DNA from: Elusimicrobiota bacterium
GTDB lineage: Bacteria; Elusimicrobiota; Elusimicrobia; Elusimicrobiales; UBA9959
Direction of reading: 5' to 3'
Assembly (NCBI GenBank): GCA_016234365.1
Contig: JACRER010000097.1
Location: 1-39,934, forward strand
DNA: 39,934 nucleotides
How positions within the stretch are numbered: position 1 is the stretch's first letter; each line of letters starts with the position of its first letter. The notes under the pieces are model-generated. The model was not told the origin of the DNA. It ran no database searches and worked only from the letters and a program-made list of their open reading frames with translations. The position numbers and the translations under genes are program-made. Below are positions 248 through 1,589 of the stretch, one piece after another.

Positions 248-1093
248 ATGCTGGTCCATAAAAAGATCCTCCTGCTGGCGCTGGCCGCGTTCTTTGCGCT
301 GGCCGCCGGCGCCGCGGCCAAAAAACCGCGCGGGGACGAACGCAGCACCTTTCGGTCCTACTATACCCCGGACTACCTCGCCTTCAAGGCCCGCATCATG
401 GAAGAGTTCTCCAAGGCCAAGGCCGGCAAGTTCAGCGAGTTCGTTAATTACCGCCGCAAGGAAACGGATAAGAGCCTGGACCAGAAGGTGATAGCCTTCA
501 CCTTTGACGCGTGCGGGGGCAAGCACAGCGGCTATAATAAGGAATTAATAGATTACCTGCGCAAAGAGCAGATCCCGGCCACGCTGTTCATTACCGGCAT
601 CTGGATAGAGAAGAACAAGGAAACCTTCGCCGAGCTGGCCAAGGACCCGCTTTTTGAGATAGAGAACCACGGCATGATGCACCGCCTCTGCTCCACGGAG
701 GGGCGCACCATGTACGGCGTGCACGGCACCCGCAATTTGAGCGACGTGGTGGACGAGATGGAACTGGGCGCGCGCAAGATAGCGGAGCTCACCGGCCGCC
801 GGCCAGTTTTTTTCCGGTCCGCCACCGCCTACACGGACGAGCTTTCGCTGAAGGTGGCCAAGCGCCTGGGCATGGAAGTGGTCAGCTACGATATTCTGGC
901 CGGGGACGCCACCCGCTCGGGCGCGGCCAGGATGAGCAAAAATATACTCAGCGGCGCGCGGCACGGGGCCGTGGTGATAATGCATTTCAACCATCCCGAG
1001 TGGCCCGAAAAAGCGGCGCTCGAAAAAGCCGTGCCGGAACTGCGCAAGCGCGGCTTTACTTTCTGTAAACTGGAAGACTTTACCGTAAAATAG
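248..1093 (+). CDS. Secreted polysaccharide deacetylase (NodB/CE4 fold)
   Basis: This protein of 281 residues has a Sec signal peptide (about residues 1-24). It is predicted to remove N-acetyl or similar groups from a cell-envelope or extracellular glycan. NodB motifs are in order: motif 1 TFDACGG (85-91), the HxxxH metal pair in ENHGMMH (His141, His145), the Arg of FFRSA (Arg190) and the late His of MHFNHP (His246). In the usual TFDDG motif the second Asp binds metal; here it is Ala88, while the putative base Asp87 is kept. This TFDACGG variant is known from annotated family members. The gene stands alone downstream of the IS110 end and appears leaderless. Substrate is unknown. Confidence 0.85.
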   Translation: MLVHKKILLLALAAFFALAAGAAAKKPRGDERSTFRSYYTPDYLAFKARIMEEFSKAKAGKFSEFVNYRRKETDKSLDQKVIAFTFDACGGKHSGYNKELIDYLRKEQIPATLFITGIWIEKNKETFAELAKDPLFEIENHGMMHRLCSTEGRTMYGVHGTRNLSDVVDEMELGARKIAELTGRRPVFFRSATAYTDELSLKVAKRLGMEVVSYDILAGDATRSGAARMSKNILSGARHGAVVIMHFNHPEWPEKAALEKAVPELRKRGFTFCKLEDFTVK

Positions 1094-1166
1094 GGTTTTC
1101 GCACGGGTCCCGGCGCCCTCCGCCCGACGGAGGAAAAAATATTTTAAACTATTTTTATTTTACCCC

Positions 1167-1195
1167 TTGACAAGTCAAGGTTCGCCTGTTATACT
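1167..1195 (+). promoter_or_regulatory. Consensus sigma-70 promoter
   Basis: TTGACA (1167-1172), a 17-base spacer and TATACT (1190-1195) form the closest match to the vegetative promoter consensus in the window. The expected start is about 1202. No open reading frame with a ribosome binding site follows for about 500 bases, which suggests a stable RNA product or a long leader. Confidence 0.8.
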
Positions 1196-1201
1196 CAAAG
1201 T

Positions 1202-1589
1202 GTAGTCCTGATCTTTAAAGTGCTCCGGCGGCGTGGTTGGCAGTGCGGTTCGGGGTTCGGCCCCGGTCCGGAGCGGTTTCCCCCAGGCCTTGCGGCCCGC
1301 CCTTTCCGGCAGTCTTGCGGCTCCGGAGCTTCGGTCGGCGGTGTCCGTCCCTGGGAGTCTTCCCGGCTCGTCTCCCGCCTCTTTGGCGGCGCGCTGCCGG
1401 GGTGCCGGTTCCGCGGCCCCGCCTATCAGGCGGACACTCCGCTCCCGGTGGCTTCCGCCCCTGTGCCCTTCGGCTCCAGGGTTCCCGGTCAGCCCTTACG
1501 CGGTGCAGTCTGCGGTTGCGGTACAAACTAGAGTAACGGCCTTACCGGCCGAAAAGAAAGAGCCCCCGCTATAGGGGGCTCTCTTTTTT
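1202..1589 (+). ncRNA. Candidate structured non-coding RNA of unknown class (about 388 nt)
   Basis: The stretch runs from a consensus promoter to an intrinsic terminator. It is GC-rich, very poor in A on the plus strand (about 12 A in 1261-1500) and full of inverted repeats: GCTCCGG 1222-1228 with CCGGAGC 1268-1274, enclosing CGGGG 1251-1255 with CCCCG 1261-1265; GGCC 1286-1289 with GGCC 1294-1297; GTGTCCG 1341-1347 with CGGACAC 1431-1437; CCGCC 1419-1423 with GGCGG 1429-1433 (overlapping the previous helix); and CCCTG 1459-1463 with CAGGG 1477-1481. Open frames here lack ribosome binding sites and give implausible Arg/Pro/Gly-rich proteins. I saw no RNase P, tmRNA, SRP or 6S signatures. It could instead be a long attenuator leader of the gene at 1714. 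Confidence 0.55.
1557..1589 (+). terminator. Intrinsic terminator of the 1202-1589 transcript
   Basis: AGAGCCCCC (1559-1567), loop GCTATA and GGGGGCTCT (1574-1582) form a perfect nine-base-pair stem followed by C and six T residues (1584-1589). It lies about 125 bases before the next start codon. Confidence 0.88.

Follow-up and report, generated by a model that had tools for sequence, protein, structure and literature searches.

Near the start of contig JACRER010000097.1 from an Elusimicrobiota bacterium (assembly GCA_016234365.1), a promoter and an intrinsic terminator enclose a stretch that contains very little adenine (A). Which kind of RNA would be made from this locus, and why would it be so poor in A? 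The stretch of DNA analyzed (39,934 nucleotides; referred to here as the window) had been annotated initially from its letters alone, and positions 1167 to 1589 had been proposed as a candidate new structured RNA. The features of the locus and its upstream neighbor are as follows.

248 to 1093, plus strand: polysaccharide deacetylase gene (Pfam PF01522, E 4e-21); upstream neighbor, not part of the RNA
1166 to 1179, plus strand: inverted repeat CTTGAC-AA-GTCAAG, overlapping the -35 hexamer; found in most copies
1167 to 1195, plus strand: promoter (-35 TTGACA, 1167 to 1172; 17-base spacer; extended -10 TG, 1187 to 1188; -10 TATACT, 1190 to 1195)
1202 to 1589, plus strand: predicted noncoding transcript, its start placed from the -10 element and its end from the terminator
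1209 to 1220, plus strand: boxA (TGATCTTTAAAG), an antitermination box of the NusB/S10 type; TGNTCTYT match at a fixed position, a box that rRNA leaders of the genus also carry
1220 to 1520, plus strand: A-depleted core (about 5% A here; family mean, 4.2%)
1222 to 1274, plus strand: domain P1, a helix of 1222 to 1228 (GCTCCGG) with 1268 to 1274 (CCGGAGC) and an inner hairpin, P2 (1251 to 1255 with 1261 to 1265)
1362 to 1448, plus strand: middle domain, with helices 1362-1367/1396-1401, 1369-1371/1391-1393, 1375-1379/1385-1389, and 1405-1408/1445-1448
1559 to 1588, plus strand: intrinsic terminator, AGAGCCCCC-GCTATA-GGGGGCTCT followed by a T run (hairpin, 1559 to 1582)

Transcription signals of the rRNA type

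The promoter (TTGACA-17-TATACT) matches the consensus at 11 of 12 positions and carries an extended -10 TG. The initial annotation had called it the best sigma-70 promoter and had called the terminator perfect; both elements were confirmed as the top of their kind, within the first 4 kb of the window. In the RNA family described below, the promoter pattern TTGACAAGTCAA-N7-CTGTTATAnT was present in each copy, and the terminator (GAGCCCCC...GGGGGCTC) was conserved. The inverted repeat also occurs at other strong promoters of the genus, and the promoter containing it belongs to a strong type used by the genus and is not RNA specific. Given that some protein genes of the genus are driven by the same type, the motif alone does not identify the RNA family. 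At loci L070, L075, L080, and L085, a TTGACAAGTCAA-TGCTATAAC promoter drives a conserved two-gene operon (membrane or secreted proteins) that has a short conserved leader (CTTTGCCTTGAACGCC...GGCTGTGTCA).

The 5' box of the window copy (CCTGATCTTTAAAG) was identified as boxA. TGNTCTYT was found 12 to 13 bases past the -10 element in 72 of 84 copies (82 of 84 when one mismatch was allowed), against a background of 0.7% of random 41-mers. Because the window's own assembly contains no rRNA genes, the box was compared with the rRNA leaders of relatives; those of seven genomes of the genus bear CTGATCTTTTAAAG-like and TTTGCTCTCTAAAA boxes, and the box near the 5' end of the RNA matches the rRNA boxA of the genus. 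In the genus, rRNA operons are preceded by tandem promoters, each apparently followed by its own boxA-like element (L196 to L202; approximately 370 to 620 bases before the 16S gene). In Escherichia coli, boxA recruits NusB and S10 and thereby shields long untranslated transcripts from Rho (PMC4807359), and CRISPR arrays are likewise boxA protected, according to Stringer et al. (2020, eLife 9:e58182) as cited in PMC12691694. By analogy, we infer that the boxA of the RNA family may be used for NusB/S10 antitermination.

Distribution, neighbors, and identity of the RNA family

A DNA search of 61 related genomes gave matches in 35, many of them with several loci per genome. With the copies added from a scan of named genomes and from other genera of the taxonomic family, the collection amounted to 84 distinct copies, mostly about 200 to 420 nt long, with one of 560 nt. 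Among the homologues, the promoter, the 5' box, and the terminator were constant, while the middle diverged yet stayed A poor. In the scan of named genomes, every match with an A-poor core belonged to an Elusimicrobia metagenome-assembled genome or to the same genomes that were found by kinship.

The combined promoter and boxA pattern was present in 31 of the 32 genomes of the genus at 1 to 5 copies each (66 copies), these numbers being lower bounds given that the assemblies are drafts and that the pattern misses divergent copies (e.g., a copy in L053); a reversed control pattern had no matches in the same genomes. At the level of the taxonomic family, 41 of 59 genomes matched (genera g1, g3, g14, g15, and g16), and one of these matches, in G074, was not A poor (17% A). 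The 282 remaining genomes of the phylum gave no match, and the three promoter-like matches on viral contigs all lacked an A-poor core. A covariance model of the middle domain, from which the promoter was left out, had matches in three genera of the same family (g1, g15, and g16) and nowhere else, and these lay at promoter-found copies or at contig ends (the model was home-made and its E values are rough). In the longest copy (L034, approximately 560 nt), this model matched twice, strongly at 2071 to 2161 and weakly at 1829 to 1898, which suggests an internal duplication.

Many orthologous copies share the upstream deacetylase gene, which was the same-strand upstream neighbor at 11 loci and was recognized via a reverse frame at up to 12 more; the downstream genes differ. 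In the window, the gene downstream of the RNA (1714 to 2964), described as kinase-like in the initial annotation, encodes a protein that has no Pfam match and, judged by eye, apparently carries a signal peptide.

A coding gene was rejected as an explanation. Indels between close relatives were mostly single bases, as would not be expected of a coding sequence; 37 of 50 had a length of 1 modulo 3, and no frame was open in all copies. Open frames occur on both strands of the A-poor stretch only because all stop codons, on either strand, need an A.

The initial annotation had seen no signature of RNase P, transfer-messenger RNA (tmRNA), signal recognition particle (SRP) RNA, or 6S RNA. In agreement with this, Rfam gave no match in the window at the gathering score, a permissive search returned only chance-level matches (E of 0.098 or worse), and ARAGORN found nothing in the window. 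The 59 genomes of the taxonomic family yielded no 6S RNA, which could be missing or divergent in them. A c-di-GMP-I riboswitch was observed at L082 (2321 to 2399) in G034, a genome of the same family.

A sponge of the CsrB/RsmZ type was also rejected because CsrA (PF02599) is absent from all carriers of the RNA; it was found in 2 of the 59 family genomes, neither of which carries the RNA. GGA motifs, the CsrA motif that such sponge RNAs carry many times in hairpin loops, numbered 92 in the 23,928 nt of core of the 84 copies, or about one each.

The proposal of a new RNA that has a promoter and a terminator of its own was thus borne out by the lack of an Rfam match, by the 84 homologues that share the promoter, boxA, and terminator, and by covariation in two domains (see below). 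Positions 1167 to 1589 very probably represent a member of a real, noncoding RNA family that was not listed before and in which A depletion is conserved.

Covarying helices and depletion of adenine

The folding energy of the whole transcript gave a z score of -2.2 relative to dinucleotide shuffles, which is accounted for by the leader and the terminator; the core alone gave +0.2, and the family mean for the core was +1.5. Overall, the core is no more stably folded than expected by chance, and the term "highly structured" is unjustified on the basis of energy. The many nested arms of the initial annotation are therefore less certain than they appeared, and its claim of a structured RNA holds for specific helices (P1 and the middle domain) but not for the core as a whole.

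The covariation check on homologues proposed with the initial annotation gave a positive result in these two domains. In P1, the loop of which varies from 36 to 155 nt across the family, 15 cells were changed on both sides versus 5.2 in shuffles (0 of 500), where cells are counted sequences and not independent events. The GCTCCGG/CCGGAGC helix of the window is replaced elsewhere by GAGCCTG/CAGGCTC, GCACCGG/CCGGTGC, GCGCCGG/CCGGCGC, and GCGTCG/CGACGC. In the middle domain, 98.1% of the cells were paired, with 17 both-sided changes, counted in the same manner, versus 3.4 in shuffles (0 of 500); when the partners were slid by 1 to 3 columns, pairing fell to 39 to 55%. Covariation thus exceeded that of both the shuffled and the slid controls, as in a structured noncoding RNA. 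RNAalifold applied to whole-length MAFFT alignments missed P1 through misalignment, and domain-wise alignments recovered it. Judged from these alignments, the helices of P1 and the middle domain are real. The pairing of 1341 to 1347 with 1431 to 1437, from which alternative folds had been suggested, is present in the window but is not preserved in homologues (alignment A1, by eye); the alternative folds themselves are not conserved and have no covariation support.

The extreme A poverty of the plus strand, already pointed out in the initial annotation, was confirmed. With 4.7% A, the core (1220 to 1519) is the lowest 300-base segment in 40 kb, the next lowest having 11%. Averaged over the 84 copies, A amounts to 17% in the first 19 nt (the leader), 4.2% in the core, and 15.5% immediately ahead of the terminator, and A-free runs extend up to 222 nt. 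The core contains 23% T and more C than T; in the surrounding DNA, A and T are at 19 to 20% (A, about 19%), leaving T unchanged in the core while A is depleted. In genus g15 (approximately 50% G+C), the core still has only 6 to 9% A in 250-nt windows. G+C content therefore does not explain the depletion, which persists near 50% G+C.

If mutation were strand symmetric, A/G and C/T differences would be about equally numerous once weighted by composition. Close pairs differed by A/G at 31 sites versus C/T at 144. For this reason, A appears to be selected against, with G-to-A changes apparently purged on the RNA strand.

Candidate functions and relation to known systems

Two short words are enriched in the core relative to an order-2 Markov model: UGCGGU (248 observed versus 110 expected; 2.2-fold) and GUGUG (149 versus 61; 2.4-fold). 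Many of them sit in the G/U-rich P1 loop. An array of unpaired GCGGU sites was considered and dropped: GCGGU is 4-fold enriched over dinucleotide shuffles, but much of the excess vanishes under the order-2 model (1.24-fold), and GCGGU sites do not stand out clearly from the remaining core in being unpaired. Proteins with an RNA recognition motif (RRM) are the likeliest G/U binders. As the partner of the RNA, however, an RRM protein was rejected: most genomes of the family encode one or two RRM proteins irrespective of whether they carry the RNA, the complete carrier G073 has none, and UGCGGU words are absent from RRM mRNA leaders. Single-RRM proteins with glycine-rich tails (approximately 110 amino acids) are often found two per genome in the genus (L231 to L246), including two in the window's own genome (L231 and L232; G000:C11:16147 and G000:C59:7561), and the 5' leaders of their genes, which are long and conserved (GTAGTTNAAACCGAGAACTCAAGTTTTTGAAGCCTATCC...GCAGTAGAG), have a regulatory appearance.

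We tentatively favor, by analogy and at somewhat less than even confidence, an abundant trans-acting RNA that serves as a binding platform or sponge for a protein and is made with rRNA-type transcription signals. The resemblance to a sponge lies in the multiple copies, the strong promoter, the terminator, and the variable loop. The strong promoter of the rRNA class would start the RNA, and boxA would load NusB/S10 onto RNA polymerase, which may let a long ribosome-free transcript escape Rho in the manner of rRNA and CRISPR arrays. The product would then be abundant and act in trans, its variable P1 loop offering repeated binding sites (UGCGGU/GUGUG words). Selection against A may keep the core clear of A-containing sites for other RNA-binding proteins, nucleases, and start codons. 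It is also possible, and we put this with some reserve, that the near-absence of A is itself the selected functional property of a new multicopy class of bacterial noncoding RNA with rRNA-type signals, i.e., a natural A-less RNA; such a property could permit, for example, synthesis at low ATP, or invisibility to A-recognizing proteins or nucleases while a G/U-binding protein is sequestered.

Several other explanations bear on the same data. The strong rRNA-class promoter and the boxA, both like those of the rRNA leaders of the genus, would fit an RNA that acts on ribosome assembly or translation, or whose boxA titrates NusB/S10 and so tunes rRNA synthesis, and UGCGGU may be similar to the 3' strand of helix 45 in 16S rRNA. 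We nevertheless consider this role rather doubtful, as a boxA decoy needs neither a conserved 300-nt A-free core nor covarying helices, and most of the related genera lack the RNA and yet make ribosomes as well. A trans-acting small RNA, the exposed G/U/C segments of which pair with mRNAs bearing complementary ACCGCA-type sequences, would agree with a free-standing, terminated transcript and with a partly unpaired, G/U-rich loop of 36 to 155 nt; it is unlikely, however, given that the loop varies strongly in sequence and length between orthologues and only short words are conserved as a seed.

The distribution of A, most of which lies in the first 19 nt and in the last segment, the A-free runs, and a depletion conserved at different G+C contents recall a cassette whose core is transcribed without ATP, such that the RNA or its transcription reports or survives low ATP. 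The initiation and termination regions still need A, though, and the conservation of helices and words points to a product that matters, leaving this reading improbable. Even less probably, the loss of A would have followed from strand-biased mutation in a spacer that is heavily transcribed and free of constraint. A-to-G change can remove A from the nontemplate strand of highly expressed genes, but C exceeds T in the core, helices covary, and the leader and tail of the same transcript keep their A; moreover, transcription-linked mutation is unlikely because the rRNA leaders of the genus, transcribed from comparable promoters, are A rich. Hardly credible, finally, is an attenuator leader for the gene at 1714, as the initial annotation had offered, or a coding gene. 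The RNA does lie upstream of 1714 and long open frames exist, but the downstream gene varies among copies and is sometimes on the opposite strand, the terminator has no conserved competing fold, and indels break every frame.

The novelty lies in the RNA class and in how consistently A is nearly missing from it. A search of open-access papers found nothing on noncoding RNAs in Elusimicrobia. To our knowledge, no other RNA class owes its conservation mainly to the lack of a single nucleotide, and no known class explains the A-poor core. Signals of rRNA-type transcription apparently serve another stable RNA in an almost uncultured phylum, which raises the testable question of why selection would strip A from an RNA.

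Among known systems, rRNA operon leaders share with the RNA family a strong sigma-70 promoter and a 5'-proximal boxA. Unlike them, the family has no rRNA downstream, its leader is short, and its core is A depleted where rRNA leaders are A rich. CRISPR arrays with boxA are likewise long, untranslated, boxA-guarded transcripts, whereas the family has no repeats and spacers but has an intrinsic terminator and covarying helices. CsrB/CsrC and RsmX/Y/Z are free-standing RNAs of 100 to 400 nt with a strong promoter and an intrinsic terminator, several copies per genome, a repeated short word, and variable sequence, as in the family, which differs in its lack of CsrA in carriers, scarce GGA, A-depleted core, and boxA. 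6S RNA (RF00013) is a stable noncoding RNA of the abundant type and of a similar size class, whereas the family has no Rfam match. The large noncoding RNAs of Rfam (OLE, ROOL, GOLLD, and others), to which the family has only chance-level weak matches and none at the gathering score, are similarly long, structured, and of unclear function; the unpaired segments of such classes are A rich, and those of this family are A poor instead.
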